This document shows positions 546 to 62,523 of a stretch of DNA of 64,000 nt, piece after piece. Numbering within the stretch: position 1 is the first letter of the stretch; each line of letters begins with the position of its first letter. Below the pieces are notes generated by a model. That model did not search any database. It was not told where the DNA came from and saw only the letters and a list, made by a program, of their open reading frames with translations. The position numbers and the translations under genes were made by a program. Origin of the DNA: Pocillopora verrucosa (lineage: Eukaryota; Cnidaria; Anthozoa; Scleractinia; Pocilloporidae); assembly GCF_036669915.1 (NCBI RefSeq), contig NC_089322.1, positions 4,547,692 to 4,611,691 on the forward strand, written 5' to 3'.

Positions 546-2895
546 ATGTTACTTCAAATCGAGTACCGATTTGCAATCGTCTTGTTCTTAGCGGCAAAGA
601 CAGCTGAAGGAGCCGAAAATGGTGTTTTCTTTCAAATCAAAGAAAATATATTTTTCAGCTTTGGAGAAGAAAGCCTTTTGTGGTCGGGAACGGGTTCTTT
701 GCTTTCCTGTTCTGTTTTGTGTATGAGGCAAGCCTCTTGCAGAAGTGTAAACTTTCTGGAAAACGCCGGACTTTGTTATTTTCTTCGTGACGAAGTGCAA
801 ACAAATTCAGCAACTGGGCGGCTTTTAGAGCGGGATGGCTCTTTCTATTTAAAAAAGGTATTTCACGTTGATTTTTTCACATGTTATAGTTTTCGGATGA
901 CAACTTGCGTTCATTTTAGCATTGTCACGACCCAGAAAACCGTTGCTCGATCTTTCCCATCAGAGGGAAGACTTTTCACAGCAAAACTGATTACTGTTTC
1001 CATCGTTTCAAGAGACAAAAACTCTAAAAAATTTAATTTCAGTCAAAAAAAAAAATTAAGAAAAAGACCAGAGCGTTTAATTCATAGCGCGCCGAAGTAA
1101 TTAAAAATGGAAAGTATTAAAACGCATGAATATTCTTAAAGAGCAGCATAATCAATGGAGATACGCGTTAAAGAAAGTAGTTTGGTTTTATCAGCTGAGT
1201 TGATAATGTTAATTGGCCGCCTTCGAGAGATTTTAGAGCTGACGTCTCGAGCCATGGCCCTCCTTCAGCTTCAGAAATGTTGGCCAATTTACATTATCAG
1301 TTGATAAATCAAATTATCTTGTTATAAACCCCACCGACTTAACACCACCGCTTCTTTCGAAAATTACCCCTTTAGTTAAAAAATGGAGATGACAAGACCA
1401 ATTACCAGAAGTTCATTTTATAATAAAGCTTATCATCCAAAGCACATAAATTGTTCAGTTATAAGCTGAAGCCACCAACAACTGAGAGCACACTATTAAT
1501 ACCCAATGAGCCTTCAAGAACTTTGTACGCATACATGCACGAGGTATGGGTATTAACTGATATGTATTGTTTGACTCCTATGCAGGTTGACCTCCTAGGA
1601 ATAACCGCTTTAACCCAAGGTGAGAGCGGAAGATTAGTGTTGATATTGGTAACTAAGAGACGCATTTAAACTGTTATATTTAACTCCATTCAGCCTATCG
1701 TTAGTATGCATATTCTACAGGCATACTGGTCTCTATACATTTCCTAAGGTACTGAAAAATAATTTGTTTATCGATCAAGAGCTTCGTTAGTTGGTGATCA
1801 TTTCCTTTATTTTCGTGATTCTGATTCAGGGGTGATTTTGTAATGAAAATTAGATGCCAGTCACTTACAGGGGTCAAATGATAAATGAACAATCGATAGC
1901 AGTTTTTTTAGCTTTAATACCGCAGAAAAACATGACGCAAAAACTCGGAAGTTGGACATTGCATGGTTTTGAAAGACTGTGATCGTGATATCAAAATTGT
2001 GATTTCGTAATAAAGTTGGCAAACATCAAAAATTTTAAAACTGAGTAATGCTTCCTTGAATTATCGTTGAATGGTCAGATCGATGAGCAGGTGAGGGAAT
2101 AAGAACTAGATGATGAATTAGGAACAGAGAACTGGTCTTCAATACAGAAATCTTTACAAAACCAGTTTTAATCATTAAAAGAACCTGTAAAAACTTTGTG
2201 ATCCAATAGGTCAAACCATTCCTTCGCACTCAGATTCAACCCAGCATTCAGTAGTAGGTCACTCATGCCAGACCCTCCACAGGAAGAATCCTACTTCAAA
2301 CTCTGGTGTCTATTGGATTGATCCTTTTGGTGGATCTCGGGTCAACGCTTTCAAGGCTTACTGTGATATGGAGACTGATGGAGGAGGCTGGACACTAGTA
2401 TGGAGCTATTCCTTTACTAATTACAGTCATTTTAACGATAAATCGAATGCGATCACTCCGAGGCCAAATTGGCCTGTGAGATCTGAAGTAGATGTTCCTA
2501 TCTCCACGACTCCTCCATTAAATGAAACAGACTACAAAGCCATGAACTTTTCACTCTGGAAACAACTCGGCAGACAGGTGCTCATTAAGAGCAACATAAA
2601 CAACTGGCTGGTGTGTGATCCGGGAAGTGGCAGCTTGGTTGATTGGCAGGAAGGTGATGTCAACTGTACTATCATCAAACAGGTGACTGATCCAAGTTAC
2701 GAGGTGGTCCCTTCCAAATTTTCAACATTCCAAAATGGGTATGGACCGCTGTTCTCTTTGAGTAACTTTTATTACTATTTTGACGGTTACACAGGAAAGC
2801 ATCGGCCGACCCATGATCCTCTGGGAACAAATAGTCCCAACCAAAAGAAAAATGTTCCTGATCCACATGGCAACATTTTTATTCGTGCCGAGTAG
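546..2895 (+). CDS. U1: secreted PAN/Apple-like + fibrinogen-like-start protein (type I), intact
   Basis: Exons are A 546-857, B 1586-1619 and C 2210-2895; the spliced length is 1032 nt, or 343 aa. Exon A gives a hydrophobic signal peptide (about residues 1-22) and a PAN/Apple-like core with Cys55, Cys59, Cys65 and Cys77. Exon B encodes an 11-residue linker. Exon C carries SCQTL (Cys135), SGVYWIDP, AYCDMETDGGGW (Cys167; GGGW 173-176) and ends HGNIFIRAE. The first part resembles the N-terminal subdomain of fibrinogen-related domains; the rest does not match the usual fibrinogen fold signature (seen). Sequons NYS, NET and NCT suggest glycosylation. The ATG was chosen because a conserved acceptor abuts it in all units. 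Donors gtattt and gtgaga and acceptors tgcag and aatag are canonical. A role in extracellular recognition, adhesion or matrix is inference. Coral skeletal organic matrix proteins with a similar look exist (recollection, unverified). Confidence 0.8.
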
Positions 2896-3332
2896 CAAAG
2901 ACATAATAACAAACTCTTGCACACAAATACTTCAAAAGGTGATTAAAACTTGATTGCATTACCCGGAAAATCATTACATTACCTGGCAAACAATTGACGA
3001 AAATTAATCAGCGTATCAGCTAGATGGTGTCATTCTGATAGAGCTCTTAACTCCTCCAACTTGTTTTCAATGAAAAAGCATTGCTACTGCAAAGAAGAAT
3101 TTCGGATCAGATTTTGGAAGCTGAAGGTTCACGCTTGATTCGCTCTTATGAGATGAGCACGAGCGAGATCTCCTACTTTGCGGAACACTCTATAGAGAGC
3201 ACCCGTTCCTGAAAGACTGTACAGTTAACACTCTAAACGTTAAAATTGATGTTAATCTGCACAGAATATCTATTACACAATCACTCCATTAAACATGTTT
3301 AGAACTACAGTTTGCAATGTAAACCTTAGACT
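2896..3332. other. 3' flank of type I unit
   Basis: Non-coding sequence downstream of U1, shared with U3, U8, U10 and U17 (for example 29.7-30.18 kb). It probably holds the 3' UTR, but no clear AATAAA lies just after the stop. Nothing else is recognised. Confidence 0.4.
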
Positions 3333-4614: not shown

Positions 4615-5322
4615 ATGTTATTTCAAGTCGTGTATGGAATTGCTTTCGTCTTGTTCTTGACAAAGACGACAACTGAAGGATCCGAACATGGCGTTTACTT
4701 CCAAATCAAAGAAAACAGCTTTTTCGGTTTCAGTGAGGAAAGTCTTGTTTGGTCTGGAAAAGCTGACTCTTTGCTTTCCTGCTCTGTTTTGAGTTGGCGG
4801 GAAACTTCTTGCAGACGAGCAAACTTTTTAGAAAACCAAAGACTTTGTCACCTTCTTCGCGGCGAAATGCAAACAAGTTCAGCAGCTGGGCATCTTTACC
4901 AGCGAGATGGTTCTATATATTTAACAAAGGTATTTGCCACTGATGACAAGTTGCGCGGTGCTTTGCCATTAAAAAAAAAGGGCGAATTAAAATTCCCTTT
5001 CTGGATTGTTTTACAATTTTCTCAACAAGAAGGCAATTTATATGTTTCACACGTTTACTAAAGAAAAGAATTTGTCGTGAAATTCTCTTGACAGATGTTA
5101 TTTCAAGTCGAGTACCGATTTGCATTGGTCTTTGTTCTTAGCGGCAAATATTGACAAACAGAAGTTTGTTGTAACATCAAGTTTTGTATCCAGAGGCACA
5201 TAAAATGTTCCCTTGGAGGTGCAGGCCACCGATAAATATGAGCACATTTATTAATCATTATAGTATGCATTGTTTAACTCCAATACAGGTCGAACTCCCA
5301 GAAAGAACCGACTCACCCCAAG
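4615..5322 (+). pseudogene. U2: type II gene 5' half, no usable exon C
   Basis: Exon A is intact (4615-4929, 105 codons; signal peptide and four-Cys PAN-like core of the type II form with EHGV and FFGFSEES). Exon B is intact (5289-5322). Between them is a second truncated copy of the beginning of exon A with its acceptor (about 5080-5150), a recombination scar also present in U16 (57.6 kb). After exon B the gene runs into a Penelope-like element, and only relics of exon C remain (6.36-6.9 kb). A complete protein is unlikely. Confidence 0.7.
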
Positions 5323-5403
5323 GTGAAAGCCACAAATTCTTATTAATATAGGCAACTAGAGCACAAAGGTAAACGAAATTGGAACTTTCTCAAATCCAAA
5401 GAA

Positions 5404-5970
5404 AGATTATCACTCATCTTCAACAAGCCACCTTTAGTAGCCTACCGACGACCGAAAAGTCTACGAGACAGACTTGTTCGTTCAAGATTTGTAAATGAAA
5501 CACCTCAGAATTTGATACCAAAGGGATGTAGAGCATGTGAAAGAACGAAGTGTAGTTGGTGTAAAAAGATCAACCAGACCACAACTTTCACCAGTCCCAA
5601 TAACAACAAGACCTATACCATATTTCATACAGTGGACTGCCAATCGTCATGGATCATTTACATAATCGAGTGCAACATTTGCAAACTTCAATACATTGGC
5701 AAAAGCGAAACTGCATTTAACCTGCGGTTAAACAATCACAGAAACCATATTAAAAAGGGAGTGAGTAGCTGCGAACTCACGGAACACTTTTTACATAACA
5801 AACGAACTCACGACTTTAACAATAATGTTACCATAACCATTATAGAGCAAATCCGAAAAGATCATTTAGAGACTGACAAAAAGAAAGAAGTCCTTAGAGA
5901 AAGAGAGATTTTTTGGCAAAGAACATTAAACTCCTTTCAGCCATATGGACTAAACAAAAGAACTGGATAA
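5404..5970 (+). CDS. GIY-YIG endonuclease C-terminus of Penelope-like element (partial)
   Basis: One open frame of about 188 codons up to the TAA at 5968-5970. It begins with the FNKPPLVAYRRPKSLRD-type segment that follows the reverse transcriptase in these elements, then a Cys-rich linker (CRACERTKCSWC), then the GIY-YIG core (WIIYIIECNICKLQYIGKSE) followed by NLRLNNHR and a conserved-looking Glu/Arg region (LREREIFW). In intact elements this domain nicks target DNA for reverse transcription (family knowledge). The frame is free of stops, so the copy may be young, but without the reverse transcriptase it is not autonomous. There is no own start; the frame enters from the truncated 5' side. 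Confidence 0.8.
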   Translation, partial: RLSLIFNKPPLVAYRRPKSLRDRLVRSRFVNETPQNLIPKGCRACERTKCSWCKKINQTTTFTSPNNNKTYTIFHTVDCQSSWIIYIIECNICKLQYIGKSETAFNLRLNNHRNHIKKGVSSCELTEHFLHNKRTHDFNNNVTITIIEQIRKDHLETDKKKEVLREREIFWQRTLNSFQPYGLNKRTG

Positions 5971-6284: not shown

Positions 6285-6880
6285 TAGTCACTTGGTGATC
6301 TTCTCCAAGTTTTCACTGCACCAACAGAATCGGACCACTGTCCTATTTGACTGAACGCTCGCATAGCTTTTATTACTATTTTGACGGTTACACAGGGAAG
6401 CATTGGTCTACCCATGATCCTATGGGAAGAACAGAGCCAAACCAAAAGAAAAATGTTGTTGATCCACACGGTAACATTTTTATTCGAGCCGAGTGGCAAA
6501 GACATAGTAATAAAACCACACATAGATCTTTCAGAGGTGATTGAATTCTTAAAATCATTGCATCCGAGAACTGGCAGCTTGGCTGATTGGAGGGAAGATG
6601 ACATCAGCTGTCATGTCATCAAGCACGTGACTGACACGTGGAAAGATACACCGGCATCTTTATTTTTTGAACGGATAGTAAGCTGTGGACCGATTTTCTA
6701 AGCCGTCAACCCGTACTATTATTTTCGTATCAAGAAAAGCGGATCGGACTAAAGTTGAGCAGCTTTGTTTTAAGACTAACAATGACCGTATATGGCTACT
6801 TTGGAACAATGGCGGGTTAACGGTTCCACAGGGTGTAACTGGCTTGTCCATGATCAGAGAGCATTTCATTTGTTAAATTA
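6284..6880 (+). pseudogene. Exon C relics of U2
   Basis: Two pieces. At 6360-6500 the end of exon C is readable (SFYYYFDGYTG...HGNIFIRAE), but the stop codon TAG has become TGG. At 6570-6870 lies a fragment of a divergent exon C subfamily (SLADWREDDISC, TCKD/TWKDTPAS) with stops and frameshifts. The same second fragment recurs at 22.93-23.24 and 36.5-36.73 kb. Confidence 0.75.
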
Positions 6881-7680
6881 GTCTATGAAAGTTAGTTGCT
6901 CTGTAATGAGCACCGGTTCCCGTTATCCGTATATTTCTTATAGCACATTTACTCAGGGAAGGGTATACAAAACAGTCAAAAGGAAAATTCAAGTAAAACA
7001 AATTCATATTACTTGATTAGTTTTTCTTGCTAAAACAGCTGGTAAAGACACAGAGAATGCCCAACTATTTTAATAAATCAGCTGCAGTACCAAGATAGTA
7101 CATTCTCTTGAAAATACTGTCAAATAAAATAATTATCATAATTTGATTAAATTGATTTATGTGGATAAAACGTTGTCTTGTATTGTCAATAACGCGAACC
7201 TTTTCGTTATCGCGAACTTTAAGTCAGGTCACCACAGATTCTCGCCTCCTCATATCCAAATCATTCATTGACGAACCTATGATTTTTTCTCATATCACAA
7301 AATTACTTGACTCTCCTCCGCAAATATTCTGACAGAACGTTACTATTTAATCAATATACTTGCTGCTCTTCCCTGAGAGAAAAGCCTTGTTTTTCGGACT
7401 GTATATCTAATTTTTATAAATTTTTGCGATGTTTTTGTTTCTACTTTATTAAGTAAAAACGAACGAATAAAAGCAAAAACAAACAAAAGACATCAAGAAA
7501 AAAAGGCAGAACGAAAATCAAAATAGAAATCATTAAAAATCACAGGGAGGGGTTCTTTCACTTTTGTAGCAAATTCTCGGCAGTATTTAGTATATTTAGC
7601 CTGCCCTTTTAGCACGTTTTATAACGGTAGCCAACAATATGCGTCATCATCAAACTTGTAATTGATCCAATTCTTTCGCC
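6881..7680. repeat. Inter-block spacer, copy 1
   Basis: A non-coding spacer separates a type II relic from the next type I unit. Homologous copies are at 12637-13270, 36731-37620 and 58800-59640. It includes an A-rich stretch around 7440-7530. No open frame or transposon hallmark was seen; it marks the duplication unit. Confidence 0.7.
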
Positions 7681-8300
7681 GAATTATGCAAGCCTTACTT
7701 TTTATTTTATGGTTTATTTCCATTCAGGAAAGTAACTCCTCTTTGCCAGGTTTTTCATACAAAAGGCTGTGTTTTCATGTTCAGTTTTAATTTTGTCTCT
7801 TACCAATTTCCTTTTTTCTTTTTTTTTAACTTTGCATTTCGAATTTTTGATTTCTTCATTGTTACATAAAAGAACTTTTTTCAGCCTTCCGGTATTTCCA
7901 TATTCTATTTACCTAAAAGTCATGATTATTGCATTATAAACCTGCAGGACTTGTGCATTTCATTTAAAATGTCAAAATAGAGTTGTGGAGTAATTGGAAA
8001 CGTGTTGTTAAGAAAACAAAATGTCAAAGCTGTATTACTATATCCAAATAGAAAAATTGACTATCACGCGAAGATCACGGAATCATTAAATTTATAATTT
8101 ATATTAACGATACAGATCTGTTCACAAAGGTTTCTGTGTGTCGTGCGGTGTTTTTCCATCAAGAGAAAAGGGTGGGTTAAAATTTCTGTAGCTTTCTGAT
8201 TTTTCTGTCTTGTTTGACTATTTTGTCTATAGGCAGGTAATTTATATGTTTCAGACGTTTACTAACTATACCTGATTTTGTCTCAAGATTCTCTTGACAG
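7681..8300 (+). promoter_or_regulatory. 5' flank and non-coding exon of U3
   Basis: Same block as 1-545. The 5' UTR exon probably ends at 8171 (donor gtgggt at 8172), and the acceptor cttgacag ends at 8300. Confidence 0.5.
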
Positions 8301-10710
8301 ATGTTACTTCAAGTCGAGTACCGATTTGCATTCGTCTTGTTCTTAGCGGCAAAGACAGCAGAAGGAGCCGGAAATAGTGTTTTCTTTCAAATCAAAGAAA
8401 ATAAATTTTTCAGCTTTGGAGAAGAAAGCCTTTTGTGGTCTGGGACGGGTTCTTTGCTTTCCTGTTCTGTTTTGTGTATGAGGCAAGCCTCTTGCAGAAG
8501 TGCAAACTTTCTGGAAAAAGCTGGACTTTGTTATCTTCTTCGCGACGAAAAAATGCAAACACGTTCAGCAACTGGGCGGCTTTTAGAGCGAGATGGCTCT
8601 TTCTATTTAAAAAAGGTATTTCACGTTGATTTTTTTTTACATGTTATAGTTTTCGGATGACAACTTGCGATCATTTTAGCATTATCACGACCCAGCAAAC
8701 CGTTGCTCGGTCTTTCTCATCAGAGGGAAGACTTTTCACAGCAAAACTGATTACTGTTACTATCATTTCAAGAGACAAAAACTGTGACAAATTTAATTTC
8801 AGTTAAAACAAAACTACGAAAAAGACCAGAGCGTTTAATTCATAGCGCGCCGAAGTAATAAAAAAGGGAAAGTATGAAAATGCATGAATATTCATAAAGA
8901 GCAACATAATCAATGGAGATACGCTTTAAAAAAAGGTATTTTGGTTTTATTAACTGAGTTAATGATGTTCATTGGCCGCCTTCAAGAGATTTTAGAGCTG
9001 ACGTCTCGAGCCATGGCCATCCCTCAGCTTTAAAAACTCAATGTTGGCCAATTTACATTATCGGTCGATAAACCAAATTATCTTGTTCTAAACCCCACCG
9101 TCTTAACACCACCGCTTCTTTCAAAAATTACCCCCTTTGGTTAAAAAATGGAGACGACAAAGACCAGTTACCAGAATTCACTTCAAAATCAAGCTTATCA
9201 AACATAGCACATAAATTATTCAGTTATAAGCTGAAGCCACCAACAACTGAGAGCACAAAAATTACTGACTAATGAGCTTTCAAGAACTTCGTATGCATGC
9301 GCATACGCATGCATGCACGAGGTATGGGTATTAACTGATATGTATTGTTTGACTCCAATGCAGGTTGACCTCCCAGGAATAACCGCTTTAACCCAAGGTG
9401 AGAGCGTAAGATTAGTGTTGATATTGGTAACTGGGAGACAGATTTAAACTGTTATATTTAACTCTCTACAGCCTATCGTTAGTGTGCATATTCTACAGGC
9501 ATACTGTTCTCTACACATTTCCTAAGGTACTGACAAAGAGAATTTGTTCGTCAACCAAGAGCTTCGTTAGTTGGTGATCATTTCCTTTATTTTCGGGATT
9601 CTGATTCAGGGTGATTTTCTAATGAAAAATTAGATGCCAGTCACTCTTAGGGGTCAAATGATTAATGAAATGTTGAAATTAGCTAACTAACTTTCATACC
9701 ACAGACAAACAAGACGCAAGAAAAAAAAACGGGAGTTAGGCATTGCATGGTTTTGAAATATCAAAATTGTGACATCGTAATATAAAGTTGGAAAAATCAT
9801 AAAATGTTAAAACTGAGTAAAGCTTGTCTAAAATATCGTTGAATTATCGGGTCGATGAGCACCTTAGGGAATAAGGATTAGATGATGAGTTGGAAACAGA
9901 GAACTGGCCTTCAATACAGAAATCCAGTTTTAATCATTAAAAAACGTGTTCTCCATTTTTTCAAAACCTTGTGACCCAATAGGTCAAACTATTCCTTCGC
10001 ACTCTGGTTCAACTCAACATTCAGTGGGACACTCGTGCAAGACCCTCCTCAGGAAGAATCCTACTTCAGACTCTGGTGTTTATTGGATTGATCCTATCGG
10101 TGGATATCAGACCAACGCTTTCAAGGCTTACTGTGATATGAAGACCGAGGGAGGAGGCTGGACACTAGTATGGAGCTATTCCTTTACTAATTACAGTCAT
10201 TTTAACAGTAAATCGAATGCGATCACTCCGAGGCCAAATTGGCGGGTGAGATCTGAAGTAGATGTTCCTATCTCCACAACTCCTCCATTAAATGAAACAG
10301 ACTACAACGCCATGAACTTCAGACTCTGGAAACAACTCGGCAGACAGTTCCTCATCAAGAGCAACATAAACAACTGGCTGGTTTGTCATCCGGGAAATGG
10401 CAGTTTGGTTGATTGGCAGGAAGGTGATGTCAACTGTGCGATCATCAAACACGTGACTGACCCTAGTCACAAGGTGGTCCCTTCCAAGTTTTCACCGCAC
10501 CCGCAAAATGGGTATGGACCGCTGCTCTCTTTGAGTGGGCTGCCGAAAAGCTTTTATTACTATTTTGACGGTTACACGGGGATGCATTGGCCTACCCATG
10601 ATCCTCAGGGAAGAAATAAGCCCAACCAAAAGACAAATGTTGTTGATCCACATGGTAACATTTTCACATTTTACCCGGAAAAATCGTTGCATTACCTGGC
10701 AAACAAGTGA
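8301..10710 (+). CDS. U3: secreted PAN-like + fibrinogen-like-start protein (type I) with altered C-terminus
   Basis: Exons are A 8301-8615, B 9364-9397 and C 9983-10710; 1077 nt, 358 aa. Exon A has one extra Lys codon (DEKMQT) compared with U1. Exon C reads GQTIPSHSG...SGVYWIDP...AYCDMKTEGGGW and is open throughout. A deletion of about 100 bp removed the normal IRAE ending and its stop; translation now runs into former 3' UTR and ends TFYPEKSLHYLANK. Splice sites are canonical. The mature protein would therefore have a 14-residue new tail. The function is as for U1 (inferred). The loop after GPLLSLS reads GLPKS, unlike its paralogues. Confidence 0.75.
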
Positions 10711-12296: not shown

Positions 12297-12636
12297 ATGC
12301 TATTTCAAGTCGTGTACCGATTTGCTTTCGTCTTTTTCTTGGCAAAGACGACAACTGAAGGATCCGAACATGGCGTTTTCTTCCAAATCAAAGAAAACAG
12401 CTTTTTCGGTTTCAGTGAGGAAAGTCTCGTTTGGTCTGGCAAAACTGACTCTTTGCTTTCCTGTTCTGCTTTGTGTGGGCGGGAAACTTCTTGCAGAAGA
12501 GCAAACTTTCTAGAAAACCAAAGACTTTGTCACCTTCTTCGCGGCGAAATGCAAACAAGTTCAGCAGCTGGGCATCTTTACCAGCGAGATGGTTCTATAT
12601 ATTTAACAAAGGTATTTGCCATTGATGATATGTTGC
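12297..12636 (+). pseudogene. U4: orphan type II exon A
   Basis: Exon A is intact (12297-12611, 105 codons; signal peptide and PAN-like core with four Cys), and its donor is conserved. At about 12636 (after tatgttgcag) the sequence jumps into inter-block spacer, so exons B and C are deleted. Only a truncated secreted PAN-like peptide could be made if intron read-through is used. Confidence 0.75.
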
Positions 12637-14200: not shown

Positions 14201-16495
14201 ATGTTACTTCAAGTCGAGTACCGATTTGTATTCGTCTTGTTCTTAGCGGGAAAGACAGCTGAAGGAGCCGAAAATGGTGTTTTCTTTCAAATCAAAGAAA
14301 ACAAATTTTTCAGCTATGGAGAAGAAAGCCTTTTTTGGTCTAAAACGGATTCTCTGCTTTCCTGTTCTTTTTTGTGTGTGAGGGAAGCTTCCTGCAGAAG
14401 TGCAAACTTTCTGGAAAAAGCTGGACTTTGTTATCTTCTTCGCGACGAAATATTAAGTTCAGCAGCTGGTCGGCTTTTAGAGAAAGCTGGTTCTTTCTAT
14501 TTAAAAAAGGTATTTTACATGTATATTGTTTTACATGTTATAGTTTTCGGATGGCAACTTGCGATCATTTTAGCATTATTACGACCCGGCAAACCGTTGC
14601 TCGATCTTTCCCATCAGAGGGAAGAGTTTGCACAGCAAAACTGATTACTGTTACTATCATTTCAAAAAAACAAAAACCCTAACAAATATAATTTCAGTTC
14701 AAGAAGACTACAAAAAAGACCAGAGCGTTTAATTCATAGCGCGCCGAAGTAATAAAAAAAGGGAAAGTATTGAAATGCATGAATATTCATGAAGAGCAGC
14801 ATAATCAATGGAGATAAGTCTTAAAAAAAGGTATTCTGGTTCTATCAACTGAGTTGATAATGTTTATTTGCCGCCTTCAAGAGATATTAGACCTGACGTC
14901 TCGAGCCATGACCCTACTTCAGCTTTAGAAACTCAATGTTGGCCAATTTACATTATCAGTCGATGAAATAAAATTATCTTGTTATAAACCCCACCGACTT
15001 AACACCACCGCTTCTTTCCCCGTTTGGTTAAAAAATGGAGACGACAAGACCATTACCAGAAGTTCATTTCAAAATCAAGCTTATCATCCAAAGCATGAGC
15101 GTTCAAGAACTTCGTATGCAGGCATAAGGTATGGGTATTAACTGATATGTATTGTTTGACTCCAATGCAGGTTTACCTCCCAGGAATAACCAGCTTACCC
15201 AAAGGTGAGAGCGGAAGATTAGTGTTGAGATTGGTAACTAGGAGACTGATTTAAACTGCCATATTTAGCCCCTTATAGCCTATCGTTAGTATGCATATTC
15301 TCCATACCAGTCTCTATACATTTCTTAAGGTCCTGACAAGGAGAATTTGTTTATCTATCAAGAGCTTCGTTAGTTGATGATCATTTGCTCTATTCTCGTG
15401 ATTCTAATTCAGGGTTGATTTTGCGATGAAAAAATAGATGCCAGTCATTCTTAGGGGTCAAATGATAAATGAAAAGTTGAAGCAGCTATTTAACTTTCAT
15501 ACCGCAGACAAACACAACGCAAAAAAACGGGAGTTAGGCATTGCATGGTTTTGAAATATCAAAATTGTGACATCGTAATATAAAGTTGGCAAAAATAAAA
15601 AATGTTAAAACTGAGTAAAACTTGTCTAAAATATCATTGAATTGTCAGGTTGATGAGCAAGTTAGGGAATAAAGATTAGATAACGAGTTAGAAACAGAGA
15701 ACTGGTCTTTAATACAGAAATCTTTGTGAAATCCAGTTTTAATCATTTAAAAACGTGTTCTCCATTTTTTCAAAACCTTGTGACCCAATAGGTCAAACCA
15801 TTCCTTCGCACTCTGGTTCAACCCAACATTCAGTAGGACACTCGTGCCAGACCCTCCTCAGGAAGAATCCTACTTCAGACTCTGGTGTTTATTGGATTGA
15901 TCCTATCGGTGGATCTCAGACCAACGCTTTCAAGGCTTACTGTGATATGAAGACCGAGGCAGGTGGCTGGACACTAGTATGGAGCTATTCCTTTACTAAT
16001 TACAGTCATTTTAACCATCACTCGAATGCGATCACTCCGAGGCCAAATTGGCCGGTGATTCCAAGAGTGGATGTTCCTGTCTCCACAACTCCTCCTTTGA
16101 ATGAAACAAACTACAACGCCATAAACTTCTCACTCTGGAAACAACTCGGCAGGCAATTTCTCATCAAGAGCAACATAAACAACTGGCTGTTGTGTCATCT
16201 GGGAGGTGGCAGCTTGGTTGATTGGTAGGAGGGTGACGTCAACTGTACGATGATTAAACAGGTGCCGGATGATCCGAGTAACACGTTGGTTCCTTCCCTT
16301 TTTCTTCCAAACAGGTTGCCCAAAAGCTATGGACCACTTTTCTCCTTGAGTAAGTCGTGGAACACCGTGTACTACTATTTTGATGGCTCTACCATGGACC
16401 ACTGGCCTACCCATGATCCTTCCGGAACAAATTCGCCCAAAAAAATGAGAAATGTTGTAAATCCACATGGTAATATTTTCATTCGAGGCTTATAG
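14201..16495 (+). pseudogene. U5: type I/II fusion gene with one premature stop
   Basis: Exons are A 14201-14509 (103 codons, a two-codon deletion near DEILSS), B 15171-15204 and C 15792-16495; the total of 1047 nt stays in frame. A single CAG-to-TAG change at 16226-16228 (normally DWQEGD) stops translation; the frame beyond is open to HGNIFIRGL. The 5' part, including the start of exon C, is type I (most like U3). From about 16190-16240 onward, exon C and the downstream flank match type II U9 (VPDDPSNTLVPS, WNTVYYYFDG, IRGL). It is thus an unequal-crossover fusion. The truncated product would lack about 90 residues. Confidence 0.8.
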
Positions 16496-17727: not shown

Positions 17728-19180
17728 TCGGCAAGTCGAGTATCTATTTGCATTCGTCTTGTTCTTGGCGGCAAAGACAACTGAAGGATCCGATATTGGC
17801 GTTCTCTTTCAAATAAAAAAAACCACTTTTTTCAGCTACAGCGAAAAAAGCCTCTTTTGGTCTGGAAAAACTGATTATTTGCTTTCCTGTTAGGCTTTGT
17901 GTGCGAGACAAGCTTCGTGCAGAAGTGCAAACTTTCTGGAAAACCCATAACTTTTTACCTTCTTCGCGGCGAAATGCAAACAAGTTAAAATAAAATGACA
18001 AATTTTTGTTTCATCTGTTGCATCCGTTTTAAAAATTTTAAGGCCGTCAAATTTTGTCAGCGTCCGATCTATTCATAGGACCAGCCAAAGGATTTCACCT
18101 CCAGTCTGCACTTGTAAAATGTTTATGATGATAGAAAATTTGTCAAATTAAACAACTTTTTCGCCGGTGCGGAATGGCCCTAATTCTCTTTCCTAGCTAC
18201 AGTGTGAGGGAGATTTTTTGATAGCGATAAAGATAAAGATAATTTCATTAAATAACAACTCCACATACTTTTTGATTCAGCTCACCAAATCTACCTAATA
18301 GATTCGATCGGTCGTTTACACTAATTTGCGTTTAATATTGGTTCCTTGTTTGATGCTCATAACTAAATTTAGGTCGCCAGCTCCAACTTCCGTTACAGGG
18401 CTAAAGCACACATAGAGGATACTTTGCTAGACTCACTTTTAATGATGAAATTGTTTTTCTAATTTTAAACTATATGATGGTAAAGTAAAACACTTCTCCA
18501 CCCCCTGGTTCTGACCAGCACTTACCTAACAGTAACCTCACGCCATACTCTCCTCAAACAATTTCCAAGGACGTCCTCGAGTGTTTATTGGATTGATCCT
18601 GATGGTGGATCCCAGGTCAACGCTTTTAAGGCTTACTGTGACATGGATACTAATGGCGGGGGCTGGACACTAGTATGGAGCTATTCCTTTACTAACGACA
18701 GTCATTTTAGAGATGATTCAAATGCGATCAGTCTAATAGCAAATTGGCCGGTTACGAATAAGGTGAATGTTCGTATCTCCACAACTCCTCCGTTAAATGA
18801 AACAGACAAATCTTCAGACTCTGGAAACAACTCGGCAGACAGATCCTCATCAAGAGCAGCATAAACAACTGGCTAGTGTGTCATCCGGTAACTGGCAGCT
18901 TGGTTGATTTGCAGAAAGGTAACGTCAACTGTACGATCACCAAATACGTGCATTACGTGGCAGACCCTAGTAAATCATCTTCGGCGCCTTCCAAGTTTTA
19001 CCAAGCACCAACTATGGACCAATGTTCTATTCGAGTGGGCGCTGGAACGGCACCTTTTATTATTTCAATAGTTACACAGGCAAAAATTGGCTTACCCATG
19101 ATCCTTGTGAAAGAAATAGGCTCAACCAAAAGAAAAACGTTCTTGATCCAAACGGTAACATTTTTATTCGAGCCGAGTAG
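17728..19180 (+). pseudogene. U6: degraded type III gene
   Basis: The exon A relic (about 17728-17990) has lost its ATG and acceptor by deletion, has an extra-A frameshift, an in-frame TAG in the Cys core (tgttaggctt) and a truncated end. The exon C relic (about 18490-19180) lacks the acceptor, starts readable sequence at VYWIDPDGG, and is frameshifted where about 17 bp are missing after NETD. It still ends in the family IRAE motif (about 19168-19180). No product is expected. Confidence 0.8.
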
Positions 19181-42115: not shown

Positions 42116-42662
42116 CTCAAACTCAGTCCAACGCTTTAAATGCTTATTGTGACATGGAGACCAGTGGTGGGGGTTAGACTCTAGTACTTAGTTATGCCTT
42201 GACTAATTACAGTCACTTTCGTAATCGTTCAAATGCGATCACTCCAAGAGCAAACCGGCCTATTTGGTTTGATAGTTAAATGCATGTTCCTGACTCCACA
42301 ACTCCTTCATTAAATGAAACAGACTACAACGCCGTGAACTTCTCACTCTGGAAAAAACTTGGCAGACAGATTCTCATCAAGAGCAACATAAACAATTGGC
42401 TGGTGCGTGATCCGGGAAATGGCAGCTTGGTAGATTGGCAGGATGGTGACATCAACTGTATGATCATTAAATACGTGACTAACACGTGCAAAGAGACACC
42501 AGCAACTTCATTTTTTGAACCGATATTCTTTATCCACAGTCGTTATTATCATTTCGATACTCTTACAGGGTATGACTGGCCTGTCCATGATCCATGTGGA
42601 AAAGGTGAGCTCAACCAGTTGAACGGCGTCGCTGAGCCTCATGGGAACATTTTCATCCGTTA
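42116..42662 (+). pseudogene. U11: exon C pseudogene of a divergent subfamily
   Basis: Readable from the YCDMETSGGG region with Trp changed to TAG (ggttagact) and another stop near 42279. Then 127 open codons (42280-42662) with NETDYNAVNFSLWKKLGRQ, TCKETPATSFFEP and the Cys-containing HDPCGKGELNQLNG. It ends HGNIFIR. A possible poly(A) signal AATAAA is at 42727-42732. No exons A or B nearby. Confidence 0.7.
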
Positions 42663-47723: not shown

Positions 47724-48209
47724 CACAAGGAGTAAAGATCTCCTCCCAATGTTACTCTTTCCATCGACGATGGCTTAAAAATTTGTAAGTGACTTCTTTT
47801 CAAAGTCATGTAATGTATTAAGTAACAATCCAACAGGGTCCTCCTACTTTCCTTGGTCTTCGGTATGTTATTATATCATTTTAATTTCCTTTCTTGCAGA
47901 TCTTTGCTTGGGACAGATTTGCTCTCATATGGGCTTTTTCGGTTTCACCAAAGATATCTGCAGGAAGAAGATCAGGGCATGTTCTTTCGCATATAAGAAA
48001 ACGTTTATCTTGATGATGAAAATGCTCTTCAAAGTGAAAAAAGCTGACTCTATATTGACCTGTGCTCAAATGTGTAGGAGAGAAGCTGCTTGTAAAGAAG
48101 CAAGTTTCTTGGCGAGCAAAGGCACCCGTTTCCTTTTTGACGAAGGAAAAAACAGGCAAGGAAATTGAAGAGATTTATAAAACGGGATGGTTCTTTCTAT
48201 ATAGAAAAG
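47724..48209 (+). pseudogene. U13: type IV signal + PAN-like exons, degraded
   Basis: The signal exon (about 47724-47784) has lost its ATG (acaagg instead of atgagg). The PAN-like exon (from about 47901 to 48209) retains LTCAQMCRREAACKEASF but is frameshifted near both ends. Donors and the acceptor tttcttgcag are still recognisable. Confidence 0.7.
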
Positions 48210-49586: not shown

Positions 49587-49880
49587 ACGAGATCTCTGAA
49601 TAAACTCACGAAAGATTTTGCATTTTCTCAGAGTCAAATATTCTTTAACGAAGTTGAGAACCCTTGGGCATGGAAACGTCAGCTTTTAAAGTATTTACAG
49701 TGGCCAATTTACGCCAGTTATCAACTCAGTTGATAGAGCCAAATTACCCTGTTATACTCTCTCTCCGACGCAGCACCACAAACTTACCCCCTTCATTCAT
49801 TTTTTTAACCCTCTTCCAAAGTCCTTTTTGACCTTTCGACTATAAAGTTGTTGGTTTAGTACTTATCTTTATCATTATAG

Positions 49881-50474
49881 AACAAAACGCTTCTCCGCTC
49901 CCAGGTCCTAACCGGCATTCAGCCGTAACCTCGTGCCAGACTCTCCTCAAACAATATCCCGCTACGTGTGTTTAATGGATCGACCCCCATAATGGATCCC
50001 AGGTCAACACTTTCAAGGCTTACTGTGACACGAATACTTATGGAGGGGGCTGGACACTCGTATGGAGCTATTCCTTTACTAACTACACTCATTTAAATGA
50101 TGGTTCAAATGCCATCACTCCGGAAACAACTCGGCAGACAGGTCCTCATCAAGAGCAACATCAACAACTGGCTGGTGTCTCATCCAGGGCCTGGCAGCCT
50201 GGTTTTTGGCGGGAAGGTGACATCAACTGTTCCATCATCAAACGCGTGACTGGCCCAAGTCACAAGTTGGTTCCATCAAGGTTTTCACCGAAATCAAAAC
50301 AATAGCTATGGGCCGCTGCTTTGCATGACCAAACGCTATAACAGCACTAACTATTATTTTGATGGTCGCAGTGAAAACCATAGGCCTACCCATGATCCTC
50401 TCCGTGGAAATAGTCCTAACCGAAAGAAAAATGTTGCAAATCCACATGGTAACATTTTCATTCGAGTCGAGTAG
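49881..50474 (+). pseudogene. Type III exon C pseudogene
   Basis: Intact-looking acceptor (attatag) and start (EQNASPLPGPNRHSAVTSCQ), then a frameshift before the VYWIDP region, a central deletion after SNAITP, another frameshift in the SLVDWQ region, and a readable end (NHRPTHDPLRGN, HGNIFIRVE, TAG at 50472-50474). No exons A or B of its own. Confidence 0.75.
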
Positions 50475-51856: not shown

Positions 51857-54253
51857 ATGTTCCTGCAAGTCGAGTACCTGTTTGCAGTCGTCTTGTTCTC
51901 GGCGGCAAAGACAACTGAAGGAGCCGAAAATGGCGTTTTCTTTCAAATCAAAGAAAACACTTTTTTCAGCTACAGAGAAGAAAACCTCTTTTGGTCTGGA
52001 AAAACTGATTATTTGCTTTCCTGTTCGGTTTTGTGTGCGAGACAAGCTTCGTGCGGAAGTGCAAACTTTCTGGAACACACAGGACTTTGTTACCTTCTTG
52101 GCGGCGAAATGCAAACAAGTTCAGCCACTGGGCGACTTTTACAGCGAGATGGCTCTTTCTATCTAACAAAGGTATTTGGCATTGATGACATACCATGTTT
52201 TTTGGTGACACCTTCCGATAATGTACACCTTCTCACGAACAAGTTTAAGGGCCTTCCGCACAAGTAGACAAAACTAGAATTTCCCGGTTAAAATGAAAGG
52301 ACAAATTTTTGTTTCGTCTGTTGCATCCGCATTAAAAATATAAAAGCCGTCAAATTCCGTCAACGCCCGATCTATTCATAAGACCAGCCAGCATAGTTTG
52401 CTAAGGATTTCACCTCCAATCCGAACTTGTAAAATGTTTATGATGATTGAAAATTTGTGAAAATAAACAACGTTTTTTAAAGCGATAAAGATAACTGCTA
52501 CGATCATTTCACGAAACAAAAACTCCGCAAACGTTTTGATTAAGCTTTTGAGATCTACGTAAGAGACTTGATCGGGCGTTTAAAGTAATTTGCGCTTTAG
52601 CAGGAAAAAAGCTGAAACATGAGAGGACATTTGTGGAGGAACGTGAATGAATTGAGATGAGACCTTATAGGAAAGGTTAAGACGACAAGACCCACAGAAG
52701 CTTGTCTTACCATCAAGACCATAATTTAAAACTTTATGAAACGTTCAATTATAAGCAGAAGCCACCAATAACTGAAATAAGACCACAGTCGCCCGGTGAT
52801 TCTTCAACAATTTCGTACATATGCGCATAACACGAGGTGCGGATACTAACTATAAATTTCTTGTTTAACTCCAATTCAGATCAACCTTCCAGAAAGAACC
52901 GATTTACCTCAAGGTGAGAATTATGACTTCAGTATTATTAAGATCAGTAACCCGAGCGTTAATGTAAATTACCAGCCATAGCTATTGGATAAATCTAGAT
53001 GCATCAAGACAAACTTCAACTTTTATAATTTTCAATTTCTTTATTTCTACCACGTTTTGGTGTCTTCCATCTTCTACCTCTCTTCCATTATCCTTCCTGG
53101 CCTATTGCTACCAATTTTAATTTTTTTTTGCATTGAATACTTTTTCCTTAATTTCGATTGTCATTAAAATAAAACACCAAAAAATCGGGACATTTATACA
53201 GCTACGTAGAATGGTTTCGAATGTCTTAGTGGTTGTACGTTCACCAATAAAATCATTTATTTACAAGGTTCATAGTGAGGAAATGATTGAGTCTGAATCC
53301 TAATTGTCTGAGACAGCTCAACGGAATTGTAAAAAAAAAAGGAAAGATAAATCCAAGTTAGAACGCATGTCAGGAAACGTTGGGCCGGTGTTTAAGTTTA
53401 GATCCTTTTAAATTGCTCAGTAACATAAAATTGGTTCAGTCTTGTTTGATGCTCGTAACTACATTTAGGTCGCCAGCTCTATTTTCCCTTACAGGGTTTT
53501 AGTACACATAGAGGATACTTCAGTAGACTCACTTTCATTTTTTACTTTATGACTATAGAGCAAAACACTTCTCCACCCCCTGTTTCTAACCACCACTCAG
53601 CAGTAACCTCATGCCAGACTCTCCTCAAACAGTCTCCCGCTACGTCCACGGGTGTTTATTGGATCGATCCTGATGGTGGCTCCCAGGCCAACGCTTTCAA
53701 AGCTTACTGTGACATGGATACAAATGCAGGGGGCTGGACATTAGTATGGAGCTATTCTTTTACTAACTACACTCATTTTAACGATGATTCAAATGCAATC
53801 ACTCCGAGGCCAAATTGGCCGGCCAAAAATGAAGTGAATGTTCCTATCTCTACAATTTCTCCATTAAATGAAACAGACTACAACGCCATGAACTTCTCAC
53901 TCTGGAAAAAACTCGGTAGACAGTTCCTCATCAAGAGCAACATAAACAACTGGCTGTTGTGTCAACCGGTAACTGGCAGCCTGGTTGATTGGCAGAAAGG
54001 TGACGTCAACTGTACTATCACAAAATACGTGGCTGACCCTGGAGAATCAGCTTCGGCGCCTTCCAAGTTTTCACCAAATATCGACCATGGACCAATGTTC
54101 CATTCGAGTGGGCGCTGGAACAGCAACTTTTATTATTTTAATGGTTACACGGGCAAATATTGGCCTACCCATGATCCTTGCGGAAGAAATGGGCCCAACC
54201 AAAAGAAAAATGTTCTTGATCCACACGGTAACATTTTTATTCGAGCCGAGTAG
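51857..54253 (+). CDS. U14: secreted PAN-like + fibrinogen-like-start protein (type III), intact
   Basis: Exons are A 51857-52171, B 52880-52913 and C 53559-54253; 1044 nt, 347 aa. The best type III copy: all splice sites are canonical (acceptors cacag, ttcag and atag; donors gtattt and gtgaga). Signal peptide MFLQVEYLFAVVLFSAAKT; PAN-like core with four Cys; exon B INLPERTDLPQ; exon C EQNTSPPPVSNHHSAVTSC, GVYWIDPDGG, AYCDMDTNAGGW, HDPCGRNGPN, end IRAE. A fifth exon C cysteine makes nine in the mature part, which allows one unpaired or intermolecular Cys (inference). Followed by a type IV spacer. Confidence 0.8.
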
Positions 54254-55937: not shown

Positions 55938-56666
55938 ATGTTGTTATCGTCTTTCCGAAACATCTGTTACCCTGTAGGTCAAAGCATTCCCTTGCACTCT
56001 GGTTCAACCCAGCATCCAGCAGGACACTCGTGTCAGACTCTCCTCAGTAAATATCCTTCTTTGATCTCTGGTGTTTATTGGATTGATCCTGATGGTGGAT
56101 CCCAGGCCAACGCTTTCAAGGCTTACTGTGACATGGAAACTGATGGAGGAGGCTGGACACTAGTGTGGAGCTATTCCTTCACTAATTATAGTCATTTTAC
56201 GAGCAAATCAAATGCAATCACTCCGAGGCCAAATTGGCCGGTGAGACCCGAAGTGGATGTTCCTATCTCCACAACTCCTCCATCAAATGAAACAGACTAC
56301 AACGCCATAAACTTCTCACTCTGGAAACAACTCGGCAGACAGGTTCTCATCAAGAGCAACGTAAACAACTGGCTGGTGTGTCATCCGGGAAATGGCAGCT
56401 TGGTTGATTGGCAGGAAGGTGACGTCAACTGTAAGATAATTAAACTCGTGATTGACTCAAGCATATCATTTTCTTTTGCGCCTTCTAAGTTTTCGCCGAA
56501 CCGAGCCTATGGACCGCTGTTCTACCTGAGTACACTCTGGGGGAGCACTTCCTATTACTTTGATGGTTTTACAGGAAATCATTGGCCTACCCATGATCCT
56601 AGTGGAAGCGATAGGCCTAATCAAAAGAAGAATGTTGTTCATCCGCATGGAAACATTGTTCGATAA
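55938..56666 (+). CDS. U15: fibrinogen-like-start domain without PAN exon (chimeric 5' end)
   Basis: The exon C body is open from its acceptor-like ctgtag (exon start 55979) to TAA at 56664-56666: GQSIPLHSGSTQHPAGHSCQ, SGVYWIDPDGG, AYCDMETDGGGW, ending HPHGNIVR, shorter than IRAE. There is no exon A or B. Spliced signal exon (phase 0) to 55979 or 55916 gives the wrong frame, so the only in-frame start seen is the ATG at 55938, read through the acceptor (MLLSSFRNICYPV), a poor signal peptide. It could be a one-exon gene or a recently orphaned exon. AATAAA at 56689-56694. Confidence 0.5.
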   Translation: MLLSSFRNICYPVGQSIPLHSGSTQHPAGHSCQTLLSKYPSLISGVYWIDPDGGSQANAFKAYCDMETDGGGWTLVWSYSFTNYSHFTSKSNAITPRPNWPVRPEVDVPISTTPPSNETDYNAINFSLWKQLGRQVLIKSNVNNWLVCHPGNGSLVDWQEGDVNCKIIKLVIDSSISFSFAPSKFSPNRAYGPLFYLSTLWGSTSYYFDGFTGNHWPTHDPSGSDRPNQKKNVVHPHGNIVR

Positions 56667-57596: not shown

Positions 57597-57824
57597 ATGT
57601 TATTTCAAGTCGAGTACCGATTTGCATTGGTCTTTGTTCTCAACGGCGAATATTGACAAACAGAAGTATGTTGTAACATCAAGTTTTGTATCCAAAGGTA
57701 CATAAAATGTTCCCTTGGAGGTGCAGGCCACCGATAAATATGAGCACATTTATTAATCTTTATAGTATGCATTGTTTAACTCCAATACAGGTCGAACTCC
57801 CAGAAAGAACCAACTCACCCCAAG
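57597..57824 (+). pseudogene. U16: remnant of exon A start plus exon B
   Basis: Exon A is cut after about 15 codons (from ATG 57597; LALVFVLNGEY then stop). Exon B is intact (57791-57824, VELPERTNSPQ, donor gtgaaa). The same arrangement follows the complete exon A in U2, so U16 derives from the same recombined block. Confidence 0.7.
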
Positions 57825-58526: not shown

Positions 58527-58760
58527 TAGTCACTTGGTGATCTTCTCCGAGTTTTCACTGCACCAAAAAAATCGTACCACTGTCCTATTTGACTGAGCGC
58601 TCGCATAGCTTTTATTACTATTTTGACGGTTACACAGGGAAGCATTGGTCTACCCATGATCCTCTGGGAAGAACATAGCCAAACCAAAAGAAGAGTGGTA
58701 ACTTTCCACATGGTAACATTTTTATGCGAGACATAGTAAAAAAACCACACGTATATCTTT
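58522..58760 (+). pseudogene. Exon C relic of U16
   Basis: Near-identical to 6284-6540: SFYYYFDGYTGKHW...HDPLGRT, then a stop and frameshift. Paralogous with the U2 relic. Confidence 0.75.
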
Positions 58761-58799: not shown

Positions 58800-59640
58800 C
58801 TGATGAGCACCTGTTCCCGTTATCCGTATATTTCTTATAGCACATTTACCCAGGGAAGGGTATACAAAACAGTCATAAGGAAAATTCAAGTGAAACAAAT
58901 TCATATTACTTGATTAGTTTTTCTTGCTAAAAAAGCTGGTAAAGACACAGAGAATTCCCAACCCCTGATGATATTTTAATAAATCAACAATACCAAGATG
59001 GTACATTCTCTTGAAAACACTGTCAGATTAATAACTATTTCAATTTGATTAAATTTAATGTGAATAAAACGTTGGCTTGTCTTGTCAATAACGTGAACCT
59101 TTTCGTTATAGGGGTTGATCGCGATCTTTAAGTCAGGTCACTACAGATTCTCGTTTTATCATGTTCAAATCATTCATTGACGAACCTGAGGTTTTTTCTC
59201 GTATCACAAAATTACCACTTGACTCTCCTCCGCGAATATTCTGACAAAACGTTACTATTTAATCAATATACTTGCTACTTGTTCCCTGAGGGAAAATCCT
59301 TGTTTTTCGGACTGTATATCTAATTTTTATAAATTTTTGCGATGTTATTGTTTCTACTTTATTAAGTAAAAACGAACGAATAAAAGCAAAAACAAACAAT
59401 AGACATCAAGAAAAAAAAGCGAACGAAAAGCAAAATAGAAATCATTAAAAATCACAGGGAGGGATCCTTTCACTTTTCTAGCAAATTCTCGGCACTATTT
59501 GGTACCTGTACATTTAGCCTGCCCTTTTAGTACGTTTTATAACGGTAGCCAACAATATGCATCATCATCAAACTTGTAATTGATCCAATTCTCTCGCTGA
59601 ATTATGCAAGCCTTACTTTGTTCATTTCCATTCAGGAAAG
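58800..59640. repeat. Inter-block spacer, copy 4
   Basis: Homologous to 6881-7680 and 12637-13270; it shows the empty site of the solo LTR near 59635. Confidence 0.7.
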
Positions 59641-60205
59641 TAACTCCACTTTGCCAGGTGTTTCATACAAAAGACTGTGTATTCATGTTCAGTTTCAATT
59701 TTGTCTCTTACCAATTTCCTTTTTTTTCTTTTTTTAACTTTGCATTTCAAATTTTTTATTTCTTCACTGTTACATAAAAGAACTTTTATCAGCCTTCCGG
59801 TATTTCCATATTCTGTTTACCTAGAAGTCATGATAATTGCATTATAAACCTGCAGGACTTGTGCATTTCATTTAAAATGTCAAAATAGAGTTGTGGGGTA
59901 ATTGGAAACGTGTTGTTAAGAAAACAAAATGTCAAAGCTGTTTTACTATATCCAAATAGAAAAATTGACTATCACGCGAAGATCACGGAATCATTAAATT
60001 TATAATTTATATTAACGATAGAGATCTTTTCACAAAGGTTCCTGTGTGTCGTGCGGTGTTTTTCCATCAACAGAAAAGGGTGGGTTAAAATTTCTGTTGC
60101 TTTCTGATCTTTCTGTCTTGTTTGACTATTTTGTCTATAGGCAGGTAATTCATATGTTTTACACGTTTACTAACTATACATTTTGTCTCAAGATTCTCTT
60201 GACAG
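59641..60205 (+). promoter_or_regulatory. 5' flank and non-coding exon of U17
   Basis: Type I upstream block; donor gtgggt near 60079; acceptor cttgacag ends at 60205. Confidence 0.5.
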
Positions 60206-62523
60206 ATGTTACTTCAAATCGAGTACCGATTTGCATTCGTCTTGTTCTTAGCGGCAAAGACAGCTGAAGGAGCCGAAAATGGTGTTTTCTTTCAAATCAA
60301 AGAAAATAAATTTTTCAGCTTTGGAGAAGAAAGCCTTTTGTGGTCGGGAACGGGTTCTTTGCTTTCCTGTTCTGTTTTGTGTATGAGGCAAGCCTCTTGC
60401 AGAAGTGTAAACTTTCTGGAAAACGCCGGACTTTGTTATTTTCTTCGCGACGAAGTGCAAACAAATTCAGAAACTGGGCGGCTTTTAGAGCGGGATGGCT
60501 CTTTCTATTTAAAAAAGGTATTTCACGTTGATTTTTTCACATGTTATAGTTTTCGGATGACAACTTGCGTTCATTTTAGCATTGTCACGACCCAGAAAAC
60601 CGTTGCTCGATCTTTCCCATCAGAGGGAAGACTTTTCACAGCAAAAATGATTACTGTTTCCATCGTTTCAAGAGACAAAAACTCTACCAAATTTAATTTC
60701 AGTCAAAAAAATTAAGAAAAAGACCAGAGCGTTTAATTCATAGCGCGCCGAAGTAATTAAAAATGGAAAGTATTAAAACGAATAAATATTCTTAAATAGC
60801 AGCATAATCAATGGAGATACGCATTAAAGAAAGTATTTTGGTTTAATCAGCTGAGTTGATAATGTTAATTGGCCGCCTTCAAGAGATTTTAGAGCTGACG
60901 TCTCGAGCCATGGCCCTCCTTCAGCTTCAGAAATGTTGGCCAATTTACATTATCAGTTGATAAATCAAATTATCTTGTTATAAACCCCACCGACTTAACA
61001 CCACCGCTTCTTTCGAAAATTACCTCCTCTAGTTAAAAAATGGAGATGACAAGACCAATTACCAGAAGTTCATTTCATAATAAAGCTTATCATCCAAAGC
61101 ACATAAATTGTTCAGTTATAAGCTGAAGCCACCAACAACTGAGAGCACACTATTACTACCCAATGAGCCTTCAAGAACTTTGTACGCATACATGCACGAG
61201 GTATGGGTTTTAACTGATATGTATTGTTTGACTCCAATGCAGGTTGACCTCCAAGGAATAACCGCTTTAACCCAAGGTGAGAGCGGAAGATTAGTGTTGA
61301 TATTGGTAACTAAGAGACATATTTAAACTGTTATATTTAACTCCATTCAGCCTATCGTTAGTATGCATATTCTACAGGCATACTGGTCTCTATACATTTC
61401 CTAAGGTACTGACAAACAATTTGTTTATCGATCAAGAGCTTCGTTCGTTGATCATTTCCTTTATTTCGTGATTCTGATTCAGGGGTGATTTTGTAATTAA
61501 AATTAGATGCCAGTCATTTATAGGGGTCACATGATAAATGAACAATTGATAGCAGTTTCTTAGCTGTAAACCCGCAGAAAAACATAACGCAAAAACTCTG
61601 AAGTTGGACATTGCATGGTTTTGAAAGACTGTGATCGTGATATCAAAATTGTGATTTCGTAATAAAGTTGGCAAACATCAAAAATTTTAAAACAGAGTAA
61701 TACTTGCTTGAATTATTGTTGAATGGTCAGATCGATGAGCAGGTGAGGGAATAAGAAGTAGATGATGAATTGGGAACAGAGAACTGGTCTTCAATACAGA
61801 AATCTTTACAAAACCAGTTTTAATCATTACAAAAACCTGTCAAAACTTTGTGATCCAATAGGTCAAACCATTCCTTCGCACTCAGGTTCAAGCCAGCATT
61901 CAGTAGTAGGTCACTCGTGCCAGACCCTCCTCAGGAAGAATCCTACTTCAAACTCTGGTGTCTATTGGATTGTTCCTTTTGGTGGATCTCGGGTCAACGC
62001 TTTCAAGGCTTACTGTGATATGGAGACTGATGGAGGAGGCTGAACGCTAGTATGGAGCTATTCCTTTACTAATTATAGTCATTTTAACAATAAATCGAAT
62101 GCGATCATTCCGAGGCCAAATTGGCCGGTGAGATCTGAAGTGGATGTTCCTATCTCCATCACTCCTCCATTAAATGAAACAGACTACAACGCCATTAACT
62201 TCTCACTCTGGAAACAACTCGGCAGACAGGTGCTCATTAAGAGCAACATAAACAACTGGCTGGTGTGTCATCCGGGAAATGGCAGCTTGGTTGATTGGCA
62301 GGAAGGTGATGTCAACTGTACTGTCCCTTCCAAATTTTCAACATTCCAAAATGGGTATGGACCGCTGTTCTATGTGAGTGAGCACTCGCGTAGCTTTTAT
62401 TACTATTTTGACGGTTACACAGGAAAGCATTGGCCTACCCATGATCCTCTGGGAACAAATAAGCCCAACCAAAAGAAAAATGTTCCTGATCCACATGGCA
62501 ACATTTTTATTCGAGCCGAGTAG
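60206..62523 (+). pseudogene. U17: type I gene with one premature stop
   Basis: Exons are A 60206-60517, B 61243-61276 and C 61862-62523; 1008 nt, in frame throughout. The last Trp of the GGGW motif is TGA (62041-62043), truncating the protein at the start of the fibrinogen-like part. A 36-bp in-frame deletion removes the segment between VNCT and VPSKF. Splice sites and the IRAE end are intact. Nearly identical to U1 (546-2895), so the loss is recent, polymorphic or a sequencing error. Confidence 0.8.

Follow-up and report, generated by a model that had tools for sequence, protein, structure and literature searches.

Tandem genes for predicted secreted proteins with a PAN module and a fibrinogen/intelectin-like head in the stony coral Pocillopora verrucosa

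Repeated exons crowd one stretch of the genome of Pocillopora verrucosa, raising the question of what these copies encode and how many of them are intact genes. The stretch analysed here, 64,000 nucleotides of contig NC_089322.1, is referred to as the window. The tandem array of duplicated genes is real, and it goes beyond chance because copies of the 300-nt repeat families D1, D2, D3, D8 and D9 are 61-98% identical to their own reference copy and the mean dN/dS among copies (0.36-0.41) is well below 1. Throughout the window, and always on the plus strand, we mapped 14 PAN-like first coding exons (exon A, two of them divergent), 11 copies of a 34-nt exon (exon B) and 14 sizeable copies of a long exon (exon C), besides short exon C fragments that fall into nine groups by our own grouping. 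All three coding exons are found together in nine units. A previous sequence-only reading of this DNA had described about 17 units; the exon mapping corrects that number to the counts given here and agrees with its description of tandem copies on one strand with a common plan and common phases, which leaves the observation partly confirmed. A scan of the window against Rfam returned no match at the gathering score, and transposon fragments are present.

A predicted signal peptide followed by a PAN/Apple module is encoded by exon A, which has phase 0; exon B adds a linker of 11 residues and exon C the head, the codon across the B-C junction being G/GT (Gly), G/AG (Glu) or G/AT (Asp). The joining of the three exons is supported because gene models of P. 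verrucosa have the same plan at 94-95% identity, and because the contigs that carry two complete relatives are not long enough to hold introns of this size. All 11 intact copies of exon A have AG immediately before the ATG, a placement that would fit an upstream noncoding exon. Three coding exons of the proposed four-exon plan were recovered and the noncoding first exon was not located, so that the plan is shown in part.

Seven spliced frames of 343, 347, 347, 347, 347, 350 and 358 aa read through, as had been noted before, including two flawed ones (U3 and U13). Five copies are cleanly intact and the others doubtful or decaying. The five predicted canonical full-length genes, with exons A, B and C in this order and exon B always framed by AG and GT, are U1 (546-857, with AG/ATG at the start and the donor GTATTT; 1586-1619; 2210-2895; 343 aa), U8 (23917-24228; 28385-28418; 28995-29692; 347 aa; sister to the P. 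verrucosa protein P0006), U10 (33219-33533; 34187-34220; 34551-35254; 350 aa), U11 (37744-38055; 38797-38830; 39420-40117; 347 aa) and U15 (51857-52171; 52880-52913; 53559-54253; 347 aa). U3 and U13 are doubtful as genes. In U3 (8301-8615; 9364-9397, with the same AG and GT; 9983-10710; 358 aa) the common C-terminus is lost and the frame reads on into a different tail. U13 (44303-44617; 45177-45210; 45863-46557) translates to 347 aa provided that exon B is included, but CG instead of AG precedes this exon, and skipping it would, as we read the sequence, join A to C out of frame.

Stops inside exon C shorten the products of U5 (14201-14509; 15171-15204; 15792-16489) to 259 aa and of U17 (60206-60517; 61243-61276; 61862-62523) to 175 aa. 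The exon C of U5 is a mosaic of U3 and U10, this copy being a recombinant within the long exon. In U2, exon A (4615-4929) and exon B (5289-5322) are present, but downstream of them exon C is reduced to fragments (6332-6725). An orphan exon A lies at 12297-12611, where no exon B was found downstream, and a decayed unit combines an exon A with a stop (17732-17947) and an exon C with stops and a frame change (18502-19177). The two divergent PAN-like exons are a remnant with a stop (20840-21091) and an exon at 47863-48165 that scores 17 bits, below the Pfam cutoff of 21.4. Further exon C copies are partial (22269-22697), decayed with stops (42121-42660), decayed with a stop (49880-50290) or an open orphan (55980-56666); the interval from U15 to this orphan showed no exon B. 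An orphan exon B (57791-57824) is accompanied by an exon C fragment (58577-58729). In this reef coral the array illustrates how tandem genes arise, decay and exchange sequence.

The PAN/Apple identity of the first module was borne out by Pfam PAN_1, which scored above its cutoff of 21.4 bits in all three window models (23.0, 23.1 and 25.3 bits), and by the fold of this part, which matched Apple and HGF-N domains. The four cysteines ascribed to the module are present in eight of the nine models with all three exons; U10 has five.

Exon C begins with the GVY...YCDM..GGGWT start of Fibrinogen_C, and this beginning was confirmed by Pfam (positions 3-46 or 5-46 of 221, 24.7-29.1 bits against a cutoff of 22, in three of three window models) and by NCBIfam NF040941, of which 46 of 46 positions were matched in three of three relatives. 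The Pfam profile recognised only the first 45 or so residues and not the whole domain. Structure prediction, which the sequence-only reading had proposed as a check, was run on exon C of U15 alone (53561-54250) and gave a model with a pLDDT of 91.5 that agrees over its whole length, through residue 230, with fibrinogen-related and intelectin domains. The claimed departure from fibrinogen after the start therefore holds for the sequence and not for the modelled fold; a new fold behind the fibrinogen start is rejected on this model. Exon C is predicted to keep the fibrinogen fold, as a member of the fibrinogen-related/intelectin superfamily that is complete although it has diverged strongly, and the C-terminal third of its product is variable, with changes in length. 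Ficolin, tenascin and angiopoietin match it in fold end to end at only 10-17% identity. The GGGW start is common to exon C and the fibrinogen-related domains of ficolin, tachylectin-5A, tenascin and angiopoietin, yet the match covers no more than about 45 of the 221 Pfam positions. The intelectins ITLN1 and XEEL and a lamprey serum lectin have target lengths of 277-283 compared with the 230 residues of exon C, and relative to them the PAN module is a coral addition.

Within a protein superfamily of wide distribution, the array represents a branch in corals. Among the matches listed, the closest database relatives are P. verrucosa proteins at 94-95% identity, two array copies having close counterparts in this species; Stylophora, Oculina, Desmophyllum, Montipora and Acropora likewise have proteins that pair PAN with the same head, and a partial protein of Porites has the head by itself. 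The term lineage-specific was accordingly too narrow, since no fewer than five stony-coral genera besides Pocillopora have the combination. P0001, P0002 and P0006 (P. verrucosa), P0004 (Stylophora) and P0138 (A. millepora) have the same plan and a similar length; precomputed lists give the same three Pfam families for P0001, P0002, P0004 and P0138, and PAN is not listed for P0006. These relatives are named uncharacterized or collagen-like, with no stated function. Among the papers listed, titles and the openings of abstracts contained nothing about a coral family with PAN and a fibrinogen-like domain, nor did the available parts of PMC10236652 and PMC13044578, and a literature search with six of the family's sequence words brought up no paper. 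The label undescribed stands to that extent; it has to be qualified by the existing database entries and by a possibly related, published family with a fibrinogen subdomain, that of USOMP-5 and coral egg proteins.

As the models combine PAN with a whole fibrinogen/intelectin-type head, secreted adhesion or lectin-like proteins are the better reading of the products, and the earlier interpretation is supported in part. In all likelihood they are lectin-like proteins of matrix or recognition that are secreted and probably bind sugars or extracellular matrix, and putative roles in recognition, adhesion or matrix are plausible. We assign a probability of roughly 55% to the following mechanism. The protein, to judge from hydropathy, would be secreted. 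Its C-terminal head would bind a glycan or a matrix protein through the variable C-terminal half, the half in which ficolins and intelectins have their ligand site. The PAN module would dock the protein to glycosaminoglycan or protein partners, perhaps in mucus, mesoglea, egg coat or skeletal matrix, and duplication and exchange between copies would vary the head.

Possible, if clearly behind this mechanism, is a structural function as building blocks of egg coat, extracellular matrix, the organic matrix of the skeleton or yolk, after the kind of USOMP-5 and the egg proteins, in which copy number would serve dosage and no specific ligand would be recognised. The low mean dN/dS fits such a role. 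In the available parts of the sources, USOMP-5 is reported from the skeleton of Acropora (PMC4043741), skeletal EP-like proteins of A. digitifera resemble egg proteins of Euphyllia and Galaxea and are said to be lineage-expanded (PMC4890752), sponge proteins that match USOMP-5 contain a fibrinogen subdomain (PMC6824150), an egg-protein transcript of the Euphyllia ovary is annotated as USOMP-5 (PMC7579821), and USOMP-5 is lower at a low Mg/Ca ratio (PMC6637933). These are secreted coral proteins like the array products, and they may be kin; the reference entries of the group are B8VIU6 (USOMP-5), AGO04749 and BAE94663. However, USOMP-5, given as 256 aa, is too short for PAN plus the exon C head. 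Neither name appeared among the best 120 of 653, 711 and 445 matches in three protein searches. Were the kinship true, the fold would endow these proteins of skeleton and yolk with a binding role that can be tested.

Similarly tentative is a role as lectins of innate immunity or symbiont recognition, the coral counterpart of ficolins and of the FREPs of snails, with copies for different microbes or algae; this is a narrower form of the favoured two-module mechanism, and the odds of the two overlap. The modelled fold, which is that of ficolins, tachylectin and intelectins, the variable C-terminal third with its length changes and the exchange between copies all point in this direction. The dN/dS of 0.36-0.41 does not: no 20-codon window exceeded 0.90, and values above 1 were confined to three very close pairs with few changes, so that positive selection was not found as support for recognition. 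We know of no expression response of array-type proteins. A more speculative and rather doubtful extension holds that the array is a recombining repertoire of lectin-like proteins on a fixed PAN stem, in which the middle of exon C, conserved and with unusually few silent differences, would be an exchange zone for swapping the variable ligand-side part of the head, the mosaic U5 being an example. If true, the coral would own a store of recognition heads.

It is unlikely that, apart from one or two working genes, most of the array is duplication debris without function. Stops, frame changes or partial length in six of the 14 large exon C copies, the orphan exons A, B and C and the transposon fragments would suit this explanation, but the five clean full-length genes, the mean dN/dS well below 1 and the two copies with close P. 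verrucosa counterparts speak against it. Least probable are secreted proteins of stinging cells (cnidocytes): the partly available source describes the FREP family of the Nematostella matrisome as vastly expanded, with several members in mature cnidocytes as possible venom components (PMC12549020), but nothing in the array points to cnidocytes.

Finally, the name collagen alpha-2(I) chain-like, carried in stony-coral databases by Stylophora P0004, is wrong on present evidence. Pfam COLFI matches with an E value of 0.001 in 115 of 115 aligned relatives; in the three window models the match starts at profile position 22, 25 or 29 and ends at position 70 of 233. Fibrillar collagen identity is rejected, since the match ends so early in the profile and no G-X-Y run was seen by eye in the window models. 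Collagen C-propeptide structures are absent among the 50 structure matches listed, which does not exclude such matches. A parallel to the Stylophora name is offered by the red-coral skeletal protein CR_6, which, according to the available part of the source, was automatically called a collagen owing to its fibrinogen-related domain (PMC7853314).

The AT-rich window (G+C of 0.376) holds a direct-repeat array along which a plan of three coding exons is repeated, exon A encoding a predicted signal peptide and a PAN/Apple module, exon B 34 nt long, and exon C encoding the fibrinogen/intelectin-like head. Exon A starts at an ATG in phase 0 and is followed by the donor GTATTT in all nine complete units. 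Exon B has a GT directly 3' and, in 10 of 11 copies, an AG directly 5', and its identity across the 11 copies is 78%, compared with 68% and 67% in the flanking 60 nt. The A-B introns measure 559-748 nt, save for 4156 nt in U8, and the B-C introns 330-652 nt. All three exons are present in nine units, of which seven retain full frames (U1, 343 aa; U3, 358 aa; U10, 350 aa; U8, U11, U13 and U15, 347 aa each) with an exon C of 686-728 nt, while premature stops end U5 at 259 aa and U17 at 175 aa. When both strands were scanned in translation with six queries, one of them itself a divergent exon A, exon A was detected 14 times (twice in divergent form) and exon C in 14 large copies and, by our own grouping, nine groups of short fragments, every listed match lying on the + strand. 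An orphan exon C at 55980-56666 (+) is open, and no exon B was found between U15 and this copy. The anatomy of the array is solid.

The gene models are matched by database relatives. A search with the U15 model aligned its full length (100%) to P0001, a Pocillopora verrucosa protein of 347 aa, at 94% identity. P0001 clusters with U13 (support 90/67), and P0006 clusters with U8 (95% identity, support 100/99). Both are gene models from a database rather than reads. If the window comes from a different species, these copies are older than the species split; if from the same one, P0001 and P0006 may represent further paralogues of the window copies. Two more relatives, P0003 and P0020, are encoded as complete A-B-C proteins by contigs of 1569 and 1178 nt, shorter than the array introns permit, and these contigs are thus most simply explained as spliced transcripts. 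U13 carries CG instead of AG before exon B (45175-45176), which could be a mutation, an allele or an assembly error; its exon B residues are identical in P0001.

Of the nine window models, U8, U15 and U10 were compared with Pfam; PAN_1 scored 23.0, 23.1 and 25.3 bits against a cutoff of 21.4, with Fibrinogen_C matched only at profile positions 3-46 or 5-46 of 221 and COLFI from 22, 25 or 29 to 70 of 233. The sole NCBIfam domain in three of three relatives was a short fibrinogen-like GGGW domain at full length. In an alignment of 115 related sequences, five from the window and many covering exon C only, COLFI was found in 115, Fibrinogen_C in 112 and PAN_1 in 28 at E 0.001. The predicted fold of exon C corrects the database names. 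Among the relatives, P0111 joins PAN_1 and P0112 repeated EGF matches to the same head, and P0140 has its N-terminal half in common with P0111 and is annotated with EGF, PAN and the C-type lectin domain PF00059, its domain list lacking the fibrinogen-like head. Modules of this set are therefore shuffled among coral proteins.

Exchange between array copies was seen once, in the mosaic exon C of U5 (15794-16489), whose first 350 nt are closest to U3 (92.6%; runner-up 90.7%) and whose last 276 nt are closest to U10 (92.8%; runner-up 73.7%). Large blocks are also duplicated, for example 6906-10664 and 58803-62507 at 88% identity. Mean Nei-Gojobori values were dS 0.323, dN 0.133 and a ratio of 0.41 for 11 copies of exon A, and 0.409, 0.147 and 0.36 for eight open copies of exon C, including the orphan at 55980. 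The highest 20-codon window reached 0.90 at the end of exon A and 0.62 within exon C, and the ratio exceeded 1 in three very close pairs with few changes (U4-U10 and U11-U17 in exon A, U8-U11 in exon C). Variability in exon C is lowest in the middle and highest in the last third. Among five clade representatives of the eight copies, silent differences at same-residue codons numbered 60/549 in codons 81-150 and 57/169, 106/379, 95/302 and 37/172 elsewhere. Of 10,000 random sets of 70 codons, one had so low a proportion, a result that serves as a guide, given that the region was picked after seeing the dN/dS results and neighbouring codons are non-independent. The middle is also relatively conserved in the decayed exon C at 42121, and not in that at 18502. 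The few silent differences may reflect conversion or silent-site constraint, and because the latter could also produce them, we only infer exchange between copies as the cause of the uniform middle.

Protein searches at E 0.001 returned 653, 711 and 445 matches. Among the best 120 of each, most without a species name, the named genera were Pocillopora, Stylophora, Oculina, Desmophyllum, Montipora, Acropora and Porites; all but Porites, represented by a partial protein with only the head annotated, had PAN_1 together with the head among the matches listed. The many closely numbered Oculina gene models listed suggest that this genus also has such an array. Published studies describe USOMP-5 in the Acropora skeleton (PMC4043741), skeletal organic matrix proteins resembling egg proteins (PMC4890752), sponge matches to USOMP-5 that show a fibrinogen subdomain (PMC6824150), an ovary egg protein annotated as USOMP-5 (PMC7579821) and an expanded family of fibrinogen-related proteins in Nematostella (PMC12549020). 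The array products are most likely secreted adhesive or lectin-like proteins, a putative role for a kind of protein that is already known; the weights of the rival explanations overlap, since a matrix protein may bind glycans too.

Traces of mobile elements accompany the array. The A-B intron of U8 contains an inverted repeat of about 1 kb (24580-25599 and 26998-28023, 92% identical) that looks like an inserted foldback element. Blocks at 29940-31277, 40302-41647 and 62771-64000, 97-98% alike and copied together with array units, include a reverse-transcriptase fragment (RVT_1, 30920-31393). An open frame with a GIY-YIG domain at 5347-5970 is perhaps a remnant of a Penelope-like element.
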